The notes under the pieces: generated by a model
What the model was told of the DNA's origin: nothing
What the model saw: only the letters and a program-made list of their open reading frames with translations
The model's database searches: none
Position numbers and translations under genes: made by a program
Assembly: GCF_039634785.1 (NCBI RefSeq)
Contig: NZ_JBBIAB010000004.1
Coordinates: forward strand, 186,001-250,000
Origin: Tistrella mobilis
Lineage (GTDB): Bacteria > Pseudomonadota > Alphaproteobacteria > Tistrellales > Tistrellaceae
Direction of reading: 5' to 3'
Length of the DNA: 64,000 bases
Part shown: one piece after another, positions 36,471 through 43,986 of the stretch
Layout: each line of letters starts with the position of its first letter
How positions within the stretch are numbered: the first letter of the stretch is position 1

Positions 36471-36944
36471 CTCGTCCCGTCCGTCCTGTCGTCAACTGGG
36501 GGCCGGAGACGCCCTCCCATGGCATCTCCGTGTCCGTCAGGCTACGCCGTCCCGACTGAGCGGGTCCAATGATTCGTTTGGATGGTGACTGATCGGAATT
36601 TTCGATCAGTCACCACGGTTGCATAGTCTCCGGGCAAGGCGCGGCTTGAGTGGCCGTCCATGCACGCCATCGGGACCAGATAAAAAGGAGCCCGCCCTCT
36701 TTTCTTCTTTTGGTTGATGAAATGATGCATTTTGCGTCGTGGCGCGAAATTCAGAACAGTCGGCAACTGATGCTAATGAAAATTTAAGATGATCAGCATC
36801 ATCATGTCCTCACGCCTGCTCCGCACCTGTTCCAAAGATGCGCTGCGAAGATGAGACTGCCCTTCAACCTTCGCGACCAAGACCCGGGGCACCGTCAAAG
36901 ATGTCGCACAGACCATCAAAGCCCAGATCGTGAGGGACGACCAC
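36471..36944. other. 474-base intergenic region with 13-bp inverted repeat
   Basis: This region separates the divergent hydro-lyase operon and the chemoreceptor gene and is markedly more AT-rich than the surrounding genes. It holds a perfect 13-bp inverted repeat with a 7-base loop (arms 36583-36595 and 36603-36615) about 115 bases upstream of the hydro-lyase start, without a T-run on either side, so it is more likely an operator than a terminator. I saw no convincing gene; a 74-codon frame on the minus strand (36542-36766) lacks coding character. Confidence 0.55.
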
Positions 36945-38429
36945 ATGTTCGATTTCCTGTCGCCGCGTCGACGGAGCGATGCCGAGGCAGTGATTGCCGC
37001 CGTCAACCGTTCCCAGGCCATGATTACGTTTGATATGGATGGCCGGATACTCGATGCCAACGCCAATTTCCTGACCCTCGTCGGCTATACGCTCGACGAG
37101 ATCAAGGGCCAGAACCACCGCATGCTGGTGGATGTGGCGGAGCGCGAGAGCCCGGCCTATACCGCCTTCTGGGACGCGCTGCGCCGGGGCGAGTATCAGG
37201 CACGTCAGTTTCGCCGGATCGGCAAGGGCGGAAAGGTCGTCTGGATCGAGGCCTCGTACAACCCGGTGCTCGATGGCGCGGGCCGGCCGGTGAAAGTGGT
37301 CAAATACGCCACCGACGTCACCGCCGAGAAGACCGCCGCCGCCGATCTGGACGGACAGATGCGGGCGATCCGCAAGGCGCTGGCCGTGATCGAGTTCGAT
37401 CTGGACGGCAAGGTGCTGTGGGCGAACGACAATTTCCTGAACGTCATCGGCTATCGGCTGGACGAGATCCAGGGCCGCCACCATTCCATGTTCGTGGACG
37501 CCGCCGAACGGGATAGCGCCGATTACAAGGTGTTCTGGACGGCGCTGCGGCGCGGCGAGTATCAGGCCCGGCAGTTCAAGCGCATCGCCAAGGGCGGTCG
37601 CACGGTCTGGATCGAGGCCTCGTACAACCCGATCCTGGATGCCGAGGGCCGGCCGGTGAAGGTGGTGAAATACGCCACCGACATCACCCGGCAGATCGGC
37701 ATGCTGACCGATCTCAAGACCCTGATCGACCGCAATTTCGCCGAGATCGACCACGCGGTCGACCGCTCCACCAACGAGGCCGGCGCGGCCGCCACGGCCG
37801 CCGGCCAGACCAGCGGCGCGGTTCAGATGATGGTGGCGGGGACGGAAGAACTGGCAGCCTCGATCGCCGAGATTTCGCAGAGCATGGTGAAGTCGCGGGA
37901 AGCGACCGATGGCGCGGTCGACCGGGCCACGCGCGCCGACGAGGCCGCCCAGCGGCTGGACGGTGTCGCCCGCTCGATGGAAGGCGTGGTCGAGGTGATC
38001 CGCGGCATTGCCGGCCAGATCAACCTGCTCGCGCTCAACGCCACGATCGAAGCCGCCCGCGCGGGCGAGGCCGGTCGCGGCTTCGCGGTGGTCGCAACCG
38101 AGGTCAAGACCCTCGCCAACCAGTCGGCCGATGCCACCACCCGCATCTCGAACGAAATCGAGGGCATGCAGGGGCTGTCGGGCGAGGTGGCGGAAGCGCT
38201 GCGCACCATCCGCGGCTCGATCCTCACCGTCCGCGACCATGTCACCACCACCGCGGCCGCGGTCGAGGAACAGAGCGTCGTCACCCGCGACCTGTCGGCC
38301 AATATGCACACCACCGCCGCCGCAGTCGACACCGTCACCCGCAGCCTGGACGGCATCACCGACGCGGTCAGCCGCGTCGCCGGCACGGTTCAGACCACCA
38401 AACAGGCCGCGACGGTGCTGGCGCGGTAA
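36945..38429 (+). CDS. Soluble methyl-accepting chemotaxis protein with two PAS domains
   Basis: This is a protein of about 494 residues without membrane helices. Two tandem PAS domains (about 10-125 and 130-247) are close copies: both contain '[10 protein letters not shown]' and 'VWIEASYNP'. The signalling domain (about 250-494) has the conserved hairpin tip '[20 protein letters not shown]' and [16 protein letters not shown]. It likely senses a cytoplasmic redox or small-molecule cue through flavin or haem. The ATG at 36945 follows GAGGGACG; a GTG five codons upstream is less likely. It precedes the hxs genes but a 98-base gap separates them. Confidence 0.92.
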
Positions 38430-38527
38430 GCGACCAACAATCTTAAGCTGTGATTTTACGGCAGACATGTCTTTTCAATTGCAAAGAGTGACCATGCGGG
38501 ATTAGCGTCACCAGACGTTCTGCCGTC

Positions 38528-38875
38528 ATGGGCCTCCTTGCCATGCCTTTACCCGCCAGCCAGATTGCAGCAGCCGTCGAGCCGGAGCAGCTTCTCCGGC
38601 TCGACGCCGCCTATCCCGCCGAAGCCGTTCTTCACACGGCTTATGACATGGCGGCAGAGGCCCTGATCTGGCTTGTGCCCGATGCGCCCGAGGGCAGCCG
38701 GCTCGTGGCCTTTGCCCGCAGATCTCCGGACGGCGCGCCGGTCGATGCGGCGCTCGCCGCTCGTTTTCTGGACCGACTGACGGATCAGTCCCTGCGGGTC
38801 ATGTTGCGCGATCGCACTGCCGGCGTGCGGGACGCCGTCTTCAGCACGGCCATGGCGGCGCTGGCGCCCGGATGA
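38528..38875 (+). CDS. hxsD: His-Xaa-Ser system protein HxsD
   Basis: This is a small protein (115 residues; an internal ATG five codons in is also possible). The C-terminal pattern 'FLDRLTDQSLRVMLRDRTAG' with VRDAVFSTAM and the N-terminal 'RLDAAYPAEAVLHTAYDMAA' match HxsD, the small partner conserved with the two radical-SAM maturases of His-Xaa-Ser systems. Its role is unproven; a recognition or chaperone function for the substrate is plausible. Its stop overlaps the hxsB ATG (ATGA). Confidence 0.8.
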   Translation: MGLLAMPLPASQIAAAVEPEQLLRLDAAYPAEAVLHTAYDMAAEALIWLVPDAPEGSRLVAFARRSPDGAPVDAALAARFLDRLTDQSLRVMLRDRTAGVRDAVFSTAMAALAPG

Positions 38876-40332
38876 ACAAGCTCGACCTCATGCCCCTGCG
38901 CTTCGAGCGGCTGACCATCCCGCCGGGGCAGGTCCTCGTCACCCATGACGGCGGTGATTTCGCGTTTCTGAACCAGACGGACTTCCGCCGCCTGATCGAG
39001 GATCCCGCCGACCTGGCCCCCCACATCCGGGACGACCTTCTTGCCCGGGGCTTCCTGCACGACCCGCTGACCGCCACGACCCGGCGTATCACCGCGGCCC
39101 AGCTTGCGACCCGGAAGCGGTTCGTCGCCGAGGGACCGTCGCTGCATATCTGCGTGGTGACGCTGCGCTGCGACCACGGCTGCGACTACTGCCAGGTCTC
39201 GCGCCGCGGCCCCTCTGCCGCCGGCTTCGACATGTCGGAAGAGACAGCCCGAGCCGCGGTCGACCGGATCTTCGAAAGCCCCGCCCCCGCGCTCACCATC
39301 GAGTTCCAGGGCGGCGAACCGGCCTTCGCGTTCGACCGGGTCCGGCAGATCGTGGCCCTTGCCCGAGATCGCGCCGGGTCAGACGGAAGACCGCTCACCT
39401 TCTCGATGGTCTCCACCCTGCAGCGCCTCGATGACGACATGCTCCGCTTCTGCCTGGAGCACGAGATCGCGCTTTCGACCTCGATCGACGGCCCCGCCGC
39501 GTTGCATGACCGCCATCGCCGGCGACCTGGGGGCGGCGCCTTCGATGCCACCCGACGCGCGCTGGACCGCGCGCGCCGGATATTGGGAGCCGAGGCCGTC
39601 GCTGCGATTGCGACCATCACCGGCGACGCGCTCGACCGGCCCGACGAGGTCGTGGACGCTTATGTCGACCTTGGCTTCCGCTCGGTCTTTCTGCGGCCGG
39701 TCGCCCCCTACGGCTTCGCCCGCCGCCAACCCGGCCTTGCTCCTTCCGTCACCGGCTTCATCGAATTCTATCGCCGGGCGCTCGATCGCTGCATCGAACA
39801 TTGCCGTGCCGGCCGGCACATCGAGGAAGCCTATGCCACAATCCTGTTGACCCACATCCTCACCCCCTTCGGCGGCGGCTATGTCGATCTCCGCTCCCCC
39901 GCGGGTGCCGGGCACGGCGTGCTGGTCTATAACCATGATGGCGGCGTCTATGTCTCGGACGAGGCGCGGATGCTGGCGGCAAGCGGGGATCATCGGCTGA
40001 GGATCGGGGACGTTCACACGCCGTTCCGGGAGCTTGCCGGCAGCGGCACCCTCCGCGCCCTCCTCGCCGCCGGCCTGGCGGAAAGCCTGCCCGGATGCTG
40101 GAGCTGCGCCTTTCTGCCCTATTGCGGCAATGACCCGGTTCACCATCTGGCCACGCAAGGCGACCCGGTCGGCCATCGCGCTTTCAGCGATCACTGTGCA
40201 CGCCATAAGGCGCTGTTTCGCCTGCTCTTCGCCCGGATTGCAGCGAACGATGCCGAGGTCAACCGGATCTTCGCAGCCTGGATCGGCCGTCGACAGCCGG
40301 CCGAGCCTGGCGGCGATATCCGCCTCGACTGA
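38872..40332 (+). CDS. hxsB: Radical SAM maturase HxsB
   Basis: This is a 486-residue radical-SAM enzyme. The 4Fe-4S motif CX3CX2C is at Cys100, Cys104 and Cys107 ('VVTLRCDHGCDYCQVSRRG'), followed by 'TIEFQGGEPAFAFDRV', the SAM-binding GGEP-type motif. A C-terminal cysteine cluster ('GCWSCAFLPYC' and a later 'DHCARHK') looks like a SPASM-type auxiliary cluster domain, as in peptide-modifying enzymes. It is named after the His-Xaa-Ser system of TIGRFAM/NCBIfam. It is expected to modify the HxS region of HxsA, but the chemistry is not known to me. Confidence 0.88.
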   Translation: MNKLDLMPLRFERLTIPPGQVLVTHDGGDFAFLNQTDFRRLIEDPADLAPHIRDDLLARGFLHDPLTATTRRITAAQLATRKRFVAEGPSLHICVVTLRCDHGCDYCQVSRRGPSAAGFDMSEETARAAVDRIFESPAPALTIEFQGGEPAFAFDRVRQIVALARDRAGSDGRPLTFSMVSTLQRLDDDMLRFCLEHEIALSTSIDGPAALHDRHRRRPGGGAFDATRRALDRARRILGAEAVAAIATITGDALDRPDEVVDAYVDLGFRSVFLRPVAPYGFARRQPGLAPSVTGFIEFYRRALDRCIEHCRAGRHIEEAYATILLTHILTPFGGGYVDLRSPAGAGHGVLVYNHDGGVYVSDEARMLAASGDHRLRIGDVHTPFRELAGSGTLRALLAAGLAESLPGCWSCAFLPYCGNDPVHHLATQGDPVGHRAFSDHCARHKALFRLLFARIAANDAEVNRIFAAWIGRRQPAEPGGDIRLD

Positions 40333-40350
40333 TCGAAGAGGCTGCACGCC

Positions 40351-41577
40351 ATGTCCCTGCCCCTGCATCAGCGCCTGATCCGTACCGGCCCTCCGGCCGC
40401 CGTCGACGTCGCCAAGGTCGCGGATATCGATGTTCTCGCCACCGGCCGGGTGCCGATTGAGCACTGCCTGCTCTGGCAGGATGATCTTTCCGCGGGCATT
40501 CTGCCTGTCGGCATCGAGGCTCTTGCCGCCGGCGTCTTCGGGGCCGGCCATGCCGCGCCGCCGGTGGGATATCATGGCCCCTGGTGGGGCGGCGGAAGCC
40601 GACGGGATCTGGTGGCGCCGGGTGACGTGGTCGGGCTCGCCCCCGAAGGCGGGCTCGTCACCATACTCTGGCGGCGCGGCTCGCGTGCGAACACACTGCT
40701 TGCCACGGAACGCTGCAACAGCCTCTGCCTGATGTGCTCCCAGCCCCCGCGTGAGGTCGACGACACGTATCGCGTCGAACATCTGACGCAGATCATCACG
40801 CTGATCGACCCCGAAGAGACCCAGCTCGGCATATCCGGCGGCGAGCCGACCCTGCTCGATGACGGCCTGATCGAGGTGATCCGGAGCGCCCGCCGGCATC
40901 TGCCGGCAGCATCCCTGCATGTGCTGAGCAATGGCCGGCGTTTCGCCGATCCCGGCCTGGCACGCGCCATGGCCGGTGCCGCCCCCGAGGCAGTGACCTG
41001 GGGCATCCCCCTTTATGGCGACGTCGCCAGCCTGCATGACCATGTGGTGCAGGCCGAAGGCGCCTTCGCCGAGACCATGGCGGGCCTGTACAATCTTGCA
41101 GCGGTCGGCGCGACGGTGGAGATCCGTGTGGTCCTGACCCGACCGACCGTGGCGCGCCTGGAAGCGCTTGCGCGCTTCATCTATCGCGCCCTGCCCTTCG
41201 CGGCCCACATCGCCTTCATGGGGCTGGAACCGATGGGCTTCGCCCGGCGCAATCGCACGCTGATCTGGATCGATCCGGCCGACTATGCCGGTGCCCTGTC
41301 CCGCGCCGTCCATCGGCTGGCGGCGCTCGGCATGACGGTATCGATCTACAATCTGCCGCTCTGCGTGCTTCCTGCCGATCTTCTCGCTTTCGCCCGGGCG
41401 TCGATTTCGGATTGGAAGAACGATTTTGCCCCGGTCTGCGCCCCCTGCCCGGCCCGGCAGGACTGCGCCGGCTTTTTCACCTCGGCCGACAGCCGATGGA
41501 TCGGACGCGATGTCGGGCCGCTCGACCACTGGCCGCCCGCGGCCCATCAGGGAACCAGACCGTCATGTCCCGTCTGA
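40351..41577 (+). CDS. hxsC: Radical SAM maturase HxsC
   Basis: This is a 408-residue second radical-SAM enzyme with CX3CX2C at Cys122, Cys126 and Cys129 ('LLATERCNSLCLMCSQPPRE') and 'LGISGGEPTLLDDGLIEVI'. The long N-terminal extension before the cluster is typical of HxsC. A C-terminal cysteine set ('VCAPCPARQDCAGFF') is also present. It lies 18 bases after hxsB and its 3' end overlaps the hxsA start by 13 bases, so all four genes are tightly coupled. It is expected to act with HxsB on HxsA. Confidence 0.88.
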   Translation: MSLPLHQRLIRTGPPAAVDVAKVADIDVLATGRVPIEHCLLWQDDLSAGILPVGIEALAAGVFGAGHAAPPVGYHGPWWGGGSRRDLVAPGDVVGLAPEGGLVTILWRRGSRANTLLATERCNSLCLMCSQPPREVDDTYRVEHLTQIITLIDPEETQLGISGGEPTLLDDGLIEVIRSARRHLPAASLHVLSNGRRFADPGLARAMAGAAPEAVTWGIPLYGDVASLHDHVVQAEGAFAETMAGLYNLAAVGATVEIRVVLTRPTVARLEALARFIYRALPFAAHIAFMGLEPMGFARRNRTLIWIDPADYAGALSRAVHRLAALGMTVSIYNLPLCVLPADLLAFARASISDWKNDFAPVCAPCPARQDCAGFFTSADSRWIGRDVGPLDHWPPAAHQGTRPSCPV

Positions 41578-42173
41578 TCAGAAAGACCGTCACCGCCCTG
41601 GCGGGGCTCTCCCTGCCGGCGATGCTGTCCGGCCTGCTGCCGCAGCCTGCGCTTGCCGCGCCCGGCTCTGCCCCCGAATTCGGCCCGGACGGCCGTCTGC
41701 CTGTCCCCGTGTTCGACAACCCGTTCGATGCCGCAGGCGCCGGCCTCACTCGCTTCGCGGGCCACCGCAGCCATTCCAGCCACCGCAGCCACTCAAGCCA
41801 TCGTTCGCATTATTCGTCGAGCAGCTATCGCAGCACGCCCGGCTACACAGCCCCAGGCTACACGGCGCCGAACTATACGGCCCCGGACTATACGGCCCCT
41901 GGCCGGACATCTTCGGGCAGCAGATCCCCGGCCACGACTTCGGGACCGGGGACCGGCGGCGCGGTGGCGGCCACACGCCAGGAGCTGCGCGACATGGTCC
42001 TGAGGGCCCAGATTGCCCTGAATGCCCGCGGCTACGACGCCGGGCCGGCTGACGGGATCCTGGGCGAGCGGACCCGCTCTGCGATCAAGACCTTCCAGGG
42101 CGACAGCCATCTGCCGGTAACCGGCCGGCTGGATGGCGACACGCTGGTAAAGCTTGGCATCACCGGCATGTGA
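41565..42173 (+). CDS. hxsA: His-Xaa-Ser repeat substrate protein HxsA
   Basis: This is a 202-residue exported protein. It has a signal peptide (about 1-31, ending ALA), then six contiguous His-Xaa-Ser triplets (residues 67-84), a Ser-rich linker, four YTA-containing pentapeptide repeats (residues 92-111) and a peptidoglycan-binding domain at the C-terminus (about 138-199, 'AQIALNARGYDAGPADGILG' and ERTRSAIKTFQ). The ATG at 41565 lies inside the hxsC 3' end, after CAGGGA. It is the presumed target of HxsB/HxsC. The peptidoglycan-binding domain places the modified segment at the cell wall in the periplasm. Confidence 0.9.
   Translation: MSRLIRKTVTALAGLSLPAMLSGLLPQPALAAPGSAPEFGPDGRLPVPVFDNPFDAAGAGLTRFAGHRSHSSHRSHSSHRSHYSSSSYRSTPGYTAPGYTAPNYTAPDYTAPGRTSSGSRSPATTSGPGTGGAVAATRQELRDMVLRAQIALNARGYDAGPADGILGERTRSAIKTFQGDSHLPVTGRLDGDTLVKLGITGM
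41763..41816 (+). repeat. Six His-Xaa-Ser triplets in hxsA
   Basis: Six consecutive 9-base units code for H67-R-S, H70-S-S, H73-R-S, H76-S-S, H79-R-S and H82-Y-S. The middle residue alternates Arg and Ser until the last unit. At DNA level the copies differ by synonymous changes (CAC/CAT, AGC/TCA/TCC), so the pattern is kept at protein level rather than by recent duplication. Confidence 0.9.
41838..41897 (+). repeat. Four P-x-Y-T-A pentapeptide repeats in hxsA
   Basis: Residues 92-111 consist of four units PGYTA, PGYTA, PNYTA and PDYTA, followed by a decayed PGRTS. The 15-base units are similar at DNA level. This second array sits between the HxS block and the peptidoglycan-binding domain; it could be a spacer or a further modification site. 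Confidence 0.85.
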
Positions 42174-42176
42174 GGC

Positions 42177-42208
42177 AAAAAAAACCCGCCGGCACCAGGC
42201 CGGCGGGT
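42177..42208 (-). terminator. Rho-independent terminator of the beta-helix gene
   Basis: A perfect 9-bp stem (CCCGCCGGC / GCCGGCGGG, 5-base loop) is followed on the minus strand by eight T residues. It lies 7 bases after the stop of the minus-strand beta-helix gene and 4 bases after the hxsA stop, so the hairpin may also protect the end of the hxs transcript. Confidence 0.85.
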
Positions 42209-42214
42209 CTGACC

Positions 42215-43861
42215 TCACATCGTGTGCAGGTCGTGGGAGACGTTGTAGAAGCGGGTGCCCGGGAAGGTCACCGTCATGACCGCGGGATCGGTCGAAATGG
42301 CCGCGGCGCTGACATTGGTGCCGATGACGTTGTCGATCACCACCGTCGCCGTCGTGGCAGCCCCCGAGGCGCGGGTGAAGGTGATTTCGGCATAGGACGG
42401 GGTGCTGTTCCAGGAATTGGTCCAGACCTTGATCCGCCCACCGATCGCGTGGTCGATCGGCACGTCGACCGAGGCCGCCTGCGGCAGGCCATAGGGCTGA
42501 CGCGGCGTCGATGTGCCCGGGGTGGCAACGCGCCCCAGACGCACATTCCGGCCATAACCCAGCTGCTGATCCGCCGTATCGGTTCCGCCGAAGAGGCCCG
42601 AGCCGGCCGGATAGCTCAGCGCATAGCCGCCGAAAGCGCCGGTCGACCCACCCTCGCCGGCATTGGCGAAGATCGTGACGTTCGATGTGGCCCCAAAGTT
42701 GCCATCGATGTTGTAGACATAGCCGGGTGCGAAGGCACCACTGCCGCCGTCATCCACGCCGGCACGATAGCGGTTGCCGGTGATGGTGCAGTCACGCTGG
42801 TAATAGAGTTTGATATGGCAGCTGTCGGCCGGCGTGGGCGGTGCCAGATAAGCGCGGTGGTTCGGGGTCGCCCAGTTCCAGCGCCCCATGGTGCCGTCGC
42901 CGCCGGCGCCGTTGCGCGAGAAGTAGTTGCCGGTCACGACATTGCCCCAGCCGCCGTTCAGGTACAGGCCGGCCCAGCCGTTGCGGTCGAACAGGTTGGC
43001 GGTGAAGGTGTGCTCGCCGCTGTTCGACTGGATGCCGTAGGTGGCGTTCCATTCGATGCGGCAGCCGGTGACGATCCAGTAATTGGTCGTCAGCAGGATG
43101 CCGGCCTCGTGGCAGAACATGGTCACGCTGTTGGTGATCATGCCGTCAGAGCCGCTGGTGGTGATGCCCCGGCGCGAGCGCAAGATGTGGCAGCGCATCA
43201 GTTTGGTGGTGGTGCCCAGAACCATCGCCGAATCGGCAAAGCCCAGCGAGACCACGTCCTCGACCGTACTGGCCGAGCCGGCCTTCAGGCCGATCGAGGT
43301 GTTGCCGGTACCGGTGGGATAGACTGCCCGCTCATAGGTGACCGCCGCCTCGTTATGCGGCTGCAGCTTCAGATCGCGGATGGTGCAGGACTTCCCCGTC
43401 TCCATCACCGCATCGCCACCGGTGTCGCCATTGGTCTTGACGATAGTGGTGCGGGCATCGGTCGGGCGGAATCCACCCGAGCCCTCGCCGGTGACGATCG
43501 TCCCCACCGGCACGGTCAGCGTGGCCGAAACCGGATAGACGCCGGCCGGCAGATGCACCGCAGAGAAGCCCGCATCCAGCGCCGTCTGGATGGCGGCGGT
43601 GTCGTCGGTGCTGCCATCGCCACGGGCACCCCACCAGCGCACGCTGACCGGGGCGGCGCTGTCGACGATCCGCTGCCACAGACCGCCGGTCGCAACCGTG
43701 CTTTCGATCCACAGCCCACCGTCATCGGTGGCGGTCGCCCCCGCCCGCCAGGCGAACAGGCCGCCGCCGCCATCGGCAACGCCATGATAGCCCAGCACCT
43801 CGACTTCCGTGGTGGAAGACGTGACGGCCAGGGCCTTCAGGTCTGCAATGGTATTCGTCAT
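42215..43861 (-). CDS. Right-handed beta-helix (pectate-lyase-like/tailspike-like) protein
   Basis: This is a protein of about 548 residues. Residues about 75-100 contain 'VRWWGARGDGSTDDTAAIQT', the start motif of Pectate_lyase_3-type beta-helices found in glycosyl hydrolases and phage tailspikes. Many N-G-T/S-rich strand turns follow (for example 'GCRIEWNATYGIQSNSGEH', 'NVVTGNYFSRNGAGG') and a C-terminal beta-sandwich-like tail ends the protein. No signal peptide is visible. No other phage gene lies nearby. I chose the ATG at 43861 (AAGG upstream) over the one at 43879. It could be a polysaccharide-binding or -cleaving protein or a phage-derived orphan. Confidence 0.75.
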   Translation of the reverse strand: MTNTIADLKALAVTSSTTEVEVLGYHGVADGGGGLFAWRAGATATDDGGLWIESTVATGGLWQRIVDSAAPVSVRWWGARGDGSTDDTAAIQTALDAGFSAVHLPAGVYPVSATLTVPVGTIVTGEGSGGFRPTDARTTIVKTNGDTGGDAVMETGKSCTIRDLKLQPHNEAAVTYERAVYPTGTGNTSIGLKAGSASTVEDVVSLGFADSAMVLGTTTKLMRCHILRSRRGITTSGSDGMITNSVTMFCHEAGILLTTNYWIVTGCRIEWNATYGIQSNSGEHTFTANLFDRNGWAGLYLNGGWGNVVTGNYFSRNGAGGDGTMGRWNWATPNHRAYLAPPTPADSCHIKLYYQRDCTITGNRYRAGVDDGGSGAFAPGYVYNIDGNFGATSNVTIFANAGEGGSTGAFGGYALSYPAGSGLFGGTDTADQQLGYGRNVRLGRVATPGTSTPRQPYGLPQAASVDVPIDHAIGGRIKVWTNSWNSTPSYAEITFTRASGAATTATVVIDNVIGTNVSAAAISTDPAVMTVTFPGTRFYNVSHDLHTM

Positions 43862-43986
43862 GCTCGGAACCTTCTTCATGTCTGATCATGAAGACGAGGC
43901 CCGGCCCTATGTCCGCACCTCGCCCCCCGGCAGTGACATTCACCGCCGTGGGGACGACGCTATGATGTTTCCGGCATTGTCATTAT

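Follow-up and report, generated by a model that had tools for sequence, protein, structure and literature searches.

What do two radical SAM enzymes do beside an exported protein that carries six His-Xaa-Ser (HxS) triplets in a row? The locus that raises this question lies on the + strand at positions 38528–42173 of the window (the 64,000-nucleotide stretch of DNA that was analysed), with its four genes in the order hxsD-hxsB-hxsC-hxsA. Both order and coordinates are as given in the sequence-only reading of this DNA.

Gene layout and family assignment

38432..42177, + strand: hxsDBCA cassette unit, about 3.75 kb, between the stop codon of an MCP gene and a terminator
38543..38875, + strand: hxsD, 110 aa (115 aa from the alternative start at 38528)
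38872..40332, + strand: hxsB, radical SAM maturase, 486 aa; TIGR03978, 516 bits
40351..41577, + strand: hxsC, radical SAM maturase, 408 aa; TIGR03977, 369 bits
41565..42173, + strand: hxsA, exported array protein, 202 aa; TIGR03979, 131 bits
42182..42210, - strand: intrinsic terminator hairpin of the convergent gene, also found at the empty site in a congener (G001)

The hxsD and hxsB genes overlap, a gap of 18 bases separates hxsB from hxsC, and the hxsA ATG at 41565 lies inside the end of hxsC. The hxsD start is probably 38543, as in Tistrella mobilis, where the counterpart begins at the equivalent position. No sigma-70-like promoter was seen near the locus, and an Rfam search gave no riboswitch match near its gathering score there.

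Family membership was judged by NCBIfam HMM scores against curated cut-offs. HxsB (516.2 bits, E 7.6e-155, against TIGR03978; cut-off 370), HxsC (369.3 bits against TIGR03977; cut-off 267.9) and HxsA (131.4 bits against TIGR03979; cut-off 121.65) all passed, and HxsD fell below (40.1 bits, E 3.6e-10, against TIGR03976; cut-off 50). The model search proposed earlier therefore succeeded for three of the four proteins. The locus also has the D-B-C-A order, signal peptide, HxS array and peptidoglycan-binding domain of the family (TIGR03976–TIGR03979). By these sequence measures it is almost certainly a member of the known Hxs (His-Xaa-Ser) system rather than a new system.

The Hxs system was predicted by Haft and Basu in 2011, as cited in PMC9062424. 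Our literature search found that prediction, by way of its citation, and nothing further; it found no experimental study of Hxs. This agrees with the earlier remark that the chemistry and role of the system are not settled.

The HxS array is conserved and patterned

41565..41657, + strand: Sec-type signal peptide of HxsA, residues 1–31, MSRLIRKTVTALAGLSLPAMLSGLLPQPALA; assigned by eye and by hydropathy
41754..41762, + strand: [Y/F/L]-A-[G/A/Q] motif, here F-A-G, directly 5' of the first triplet
41763..41816, + strand: (HxS)6 array, the presumed modification site, HRSHSSHRSHSSHRSHYS, HxsA residues 67–84
41817..41993, + strand: fast-evolving linker with many YTAP repeats; 14 nonsynonymous changes when two Tistrella species are compared
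41994..42155, + strand: PG_binding_1 domain of HxsA; PF01471, E 8.9e-16

HxsA thus runs from a signal-like N-terminus (residues 1–31, ending in LLPQPALA with A next) through a spacer, F-A-G, the array and the YTAP-rich linker to PG_binding_1. The signal-like N-terminus, the six contiguous triplets (HRS-HSS-HRS-HSS-HRS-HYS) and the peptidoglycan-binding domain had all been described from the sequence and are all present. The N-terminus was hydrophobic in the HxsA homologues examined, the PG_binding_1 domain was found in 93 of 97, and Ala stood at position -2 before the array in 33 of 38 diverse HxsA proteins.

Given the local residue frequencies, chance would yield a run of six in-frame triplets about 6e-12 times per 2 million residues, and a chance origin of the array is excluded. 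A recent origin as satellite DNA was ruled out as well, because the repeats use different synonymous codons. The three-residue phase was strict in the 85 distinct array sequences compared, most arrays had 5–8 triplets, all six Ser codons occurred, and the x residue was Ser 240 times, Arg 191 times, Tyr 58 times and Ala 16 times.

The x residues follow a pattern in which Arg and Ser alternate along the array. In 28 distinct x-strings, Arg neighboured Arg 3 times against 14.9 expected, and none of 5000 shuffles gave a count as low, a result whose strength is overstated because arrays of related strains are not independent. Tyr was confined to the last triplet of these strings (15 occurrences, against 0 elsewhere). 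Residues i and i+2 of an extended chain lie on the same face. We infer that the His and Ser of one triplet share a face and that the alternating x residues point to opposite faces.

A comparison of the two Tistrella species counted 7 synonymous changes (10.7 sites) but 0 nonsynonymous ones (43 sites) in the array, whereas the linker had 14 nonsynonymous changes in 120 sites. Judged from this comparison, the amino acids of the array are held by selection. The peptidoglycan-binding domain is under purifying selection.

The array occurs with HxsC

We searched 398 genomes of the phylum for arrays of at least five in-frame triplets. HxsC scored over its cut-off in 15 of the 398, and each of those 15 had a codon-diverse (HxS)5+ array. 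Among the matches listed, the only other strict, codon-diverse HxS array was in genome G158, so that an array without HxsC was found in 1 of 383 genomes. The co-occurrence of array and HxsC had a Fisher p of 3e-26, calculated over genomes that are not independent and from matches sorted by eye. Together, the 15/15 co-occurrence and the selection on the array strongly support the action of HxsB and HxsC on the HxsA array, as had been predicted for this locus. On such comparative grounds, we consider it very likely that HxsB and/or HxsC modify the array.

The G158 array (G158:C32, L217:6904-7221) is part of an hxsA fragment of 106 residues next to a transposase-like ORF, without hxsB or hxsC. 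This orphan fragment is a decayed Hxs locus.

The two radical SAM enzymes, with HxsB modelled as RiPP maturase-like

The CX3CX2C clusters reported earlier for both enzymes are present. In HxsB, a β3-α3 N-terminal domain (residues 10–81) precedes the cluster at 100–107 (C100/C104/C107), and C409/C412/C418/C442 are further conserved Cys. HxsC has its cluster at 122–129 (C122/C126/C129) and further conserved Cys at C338/C363/C366/C372; its Cys are invariant in 38 sequences. Both enzymes thus conserve the three radical SAM Cys and a single additional group of four, making seven in HxsB.

The AlphaFold2 model of HxsB (pLDDT 89) gave its best Z score against anSME (Z 35.7, 361 residues aligned, rmsd 3.0), followed by CteB (5wgg; Z 34.9, 408 residues, rmsd 3.6, model range 8–460 by alignment) and ChlB (Z 33.4 over 348 residues); TigE and SuiB were also matched among RiPP maturases. 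HxsB models as a CteB/anSME-like enzyme. In the model, residues 1–81 form three strands and then three helices, and the CteB alignment begins at residue 8. Profile comparison gave no match of this domain to PqqD; by the order of its elements the predicted fold is RRE-like.

Sequence scores placed HxsB outside the cyclophane families. It was far below cut-off for the cyclophane models GrrM/OscB (53.4 against 310), YhhB (53 against 445), XyeB (29 against 450) and AmcB (46 against 425). The thioether model PapB was nearer (98.8 bits against a cut-off of 340) and was the best sequence match outside the Hxs family. CteB, among the best structural matches, and PapB have a layout of RRE, radical SAM and SPASM domains, to which HxsB would correspond with its RRE-like N-terminal domain. 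These thioether maturases act on Cys, however, and the HxsA of the window has none.

Anaerobic sulfatase maturases (anSMEs) carry two auxiliary clusters and oxidise Ser or Cys. With only seven conserved Cys, HxsB would lack the ligands for one of two anSME-type auxiliary clusters. Membership of the formylglycine-generating anSME family was rejected on this ground and on score (55.6 bits against a cut-off of 349).

A His–Ser cross-link is the leading candidate modification

Radical SAM chemistry with Fe-S clusters is cytoplasmic, which is why we place modification before Sec export. HxsA would be made with its Sec signal peptide, and HxsB (probably via its RRE-like N-terminal domain) and HxsC would act on the array in the cytoplasm, beside the [Y/F/L]-A-[G/A/Q] motif. 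Each His would most likely be bonded to the Ser at i+2, from His C2 to Ser Cβ, as a three-residue cyclophane, and the product would be a stiff ladder of rings with Arg and Ser on opposite faces. Modified HxsA would then leave the cytoplasm and be anchored to peptidoglycan through its C-terminal domain. HxsD would serve as an accessory factor, omitted in some lineages, and the cassette would move as a self-contained unit that gives a host-envelope trait. The analysis demonstrates what the locus is and how it is built, that its array is under selection and linked to the enzymes, and that the cassette is present or absent at one exact site; the order of events, the cross-link chemistry and the function are what we infer. 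To the core of this explanation (His–Ser cross-linking by HxsB/HxsC before Sec export, with HxsA bound to peptidoglycan) we assign a probability of roughly 0.4, and we regard it as the best overall.

The enzymes known to form three-residue cyclophanes link position i to position i+2, as in MscB (Phe C4–Ser Cβ), HaaB (His C2–Ala Cβ) and YhhB (His C2–Arg Cβ) (PMC11002830). The H-x-S triplet has this spacing, both partner types and a strict phase, and it matches the aromatic-x-acceptor (i,i+2) precursor motif, with six units in HxsA. By analogy, we therefore rank an i/i+2 His–Ser cross-link first among the possible products, at somewhat less than even odds. Hxs and the triceptide enzymes (OscB, XncB, YhhB, HaaB, MscB) have in common a SPASM-type radical SAM maturase and aromatic-x-acceptor triplets (PMC11002830). 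They differ in that HxsB is far under the triceptide family cut-offs, that Hxs has a second radical SAM enzyme in HxsC, and that its substrate is an exported, cell-wall-binding protein. The scores of HxsB far below all cyclophane-enzyme cut-offs count against this explanation, as do its higher PapB score, the lack of a PqqD profile match for its N-terminal domain, and the presence of two different radical SAM enzymes, which suggests steps of more than one type.

The same two enzymes could instead handle His and Ser separately, altering single residues and leaving an open chain, whether by oxidation of Ser or by epimerisation, dehydrogenation or hydroxylation of His or Ser. We think this rather unlikely, even though the best structural match of HxsB is a Ser/Cys oxidiser. 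The low anaerobic sulfatase-maturase score and the missing auxiliary Cys set speak against it, and it does not on its own explain the strict three-residue phase.

The alternation of x residues over six residues would allow a two-triplet unit, with cross-links between triplets (His–His or Ser–His), but arrays of 5 or 7 triplets also occur, odd counts that fit poorly with a strict pairing of triplets. In a related proposal, the array would be mainly a metal scaffold tuned by modification. Copper binding by noursin needs a His cross-link (PMC10206099), and bufferins are Sec-exported copper chelators (PMC12452194), yet no gene recurs beside the cassette across genera. We judge this pair of options improbable. 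The metal or redox role suggested earlier for the segment neither gained nor lost weight from these comparisons. Least probable is that HxsA is cut after export, perhaps at the [Y/F/L]-A-[G/A/Q] motif, to free the modified array as a small secreted toxin or signal: in short phage-borne HxsA proteins little follows the array and the peptidoglycan-binding domain is missing, but neither a protease nor a dedicated exporter nor an immunity gene was found to recur, and the domain is otherwise nearly constant and selectively maintained.

For the favoured His–Ser cross-link before export, bufferins offer an experimental precedent of a modified precursor with a Sec signal peptide, a feature called highly unusual among bacterial RiPPs (PMC12452194). 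Bufferins differ from HxsA in being copper-chelating and MNIO-modified, with unrelated enzymes and Cys chemistry. If the cross-link is real, it would put multi-ring RiPP chemistry into a structural cell-envelope protein, and it should be readable by mass at about -2 Da per triplet. The fullest version, in which the array is a continuous ladder of His–Ser rings in a Sec-exported, peptidoglycan-bound protein that prophages and conjugative plasmids have repeatedly acquired as a mobile envelope trait, is doubtful. If true, that trait could, for instance, shield the host from incoming DNA of phages or plasmids, or from a toxin aimed at the envelope.

What appears new here is comparative: the array-enzyme linkage, selection on the array, its alternation and cap rules, and an empty site. 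To these come a predicted HxsD fold, the apparent dispensability of that protein, and the RRE-like domain of HxsB.

HxsD is divergent and seems dispensable in a sister clade

The AlphaFold2 model of HxsD (pLDDT 90) has the order strand-helix-strand-strand-long helix. An RRE (PqqD-like, β3-α3) was ruled out by this topology and by the lack of a PqqD profile match. Against the PDB the model gave middling matches of mixed ferredoxin-like and KH-like kinds (top Z 7.4), none of them clear. The protein can be aligned with 37 relatives and is in the correct place in the cassette.

In a tree of HxsB and HxsC, the sequences of the window and of T. mobilis stood apart on a long branch. Their sister group (100/97) was a clade rich in Caulobacterales, where we looked for HxsD and did not find it. 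HxsD is therefore not defining for the Hxs core; in that clade it seems dispensable, and a three-gene core without it is possible. The earlier description of the system as complete holds for the presence of four genes and needs qualifying for HxsD, which has diverged in the window and is missing from the sister clade.

The cassette is exactly absent from a congener

In congener G001 the terminator hairpin that follows hxsA in the window comes immediately after the MCP stop codon, the cassette is exactly absent, and no HxsB scored above its cut-off. The ends of the cassette share no word of at least 6 bases, direct or inverted, as terminal or target-site repeats, and no integrase or transposase was seen inside it. 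The nearest locus is that of Tistrella mobilis KA081020-065 (HxsC 94% identical in its matched part), to which DNA identity is 89.8% in the cassette and 96.0 and 92.7% in the flanks. GC3 of the cassette (0.76–0.82) is slightly below that of three flanking genes (0.85–0.88). The comparison of three species is equally compatible with gain of the cassette in the Tistrella branch and with loss in G001; its rarity among relatives (HxsB over cut-off in 1 of 58 related genomes searched) leans towards gain. A pair of Tistrella species that differ at the exact cassette site makes the question directly testable.

The upstream MCP gene (36930–38429) encodes two PAS domains in tandem. Its stretches 37056–37322 and 37422–37688 have about 75–78% DNA identity to each other's counterparts, and the PAS unit looks duplicated. 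The convergent neighbour (42215–43879) encodes a right-handed beta-helix/pectate-lyase-like protein and adjoins the MCP gene in the congener. PqqD-family matches occurred at 7 places each in G001 and in the window's own genome, the most among the 58 relatives searched, and Tistrella genomes possibly hold many RRE-type pathways.

Hxs relatives on plasmids and in phages

Hxs-related sequences are present in hundreds of genomes. Relatives were found on 432 plasmids (332 from Klebsiella), in one Leptospira phage and in 18 viral contigs, and close relatives of one viral-contig form occurred in 90 of 5,426 E. coli genomes. When flanking ORFs were clustered at 99 loci, no partner gene beyond the four recurred across genera, and a defence-system library gave weak radical SAM matches to viperins only. 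One locus on a 5.4-kb contig of Paenibacillus dendritiformis (L114) nested among Lysobacteraceae and is probably contamination.

Five viral or phage loci (L127, L128, L129, L131 and L182) encode a short HxsA, about 91–109 aa long, in which the chain stops shortly past the array and no peptidoglycan-binding domain follows; hxsA is upstream of hxsDBC in L127–L129 and L182. In Pseudomonas aeruginosa, a region with hxsA-D has been described among mobile-element genes (PMC8446631). In the one E. coli genome inspected, hxsDBCA (L184:7348-10745) lies within a P2-like prophage, flanked by ogr and a tail gene and near a Hok/Gef gene, a position that looks like a cargo site.
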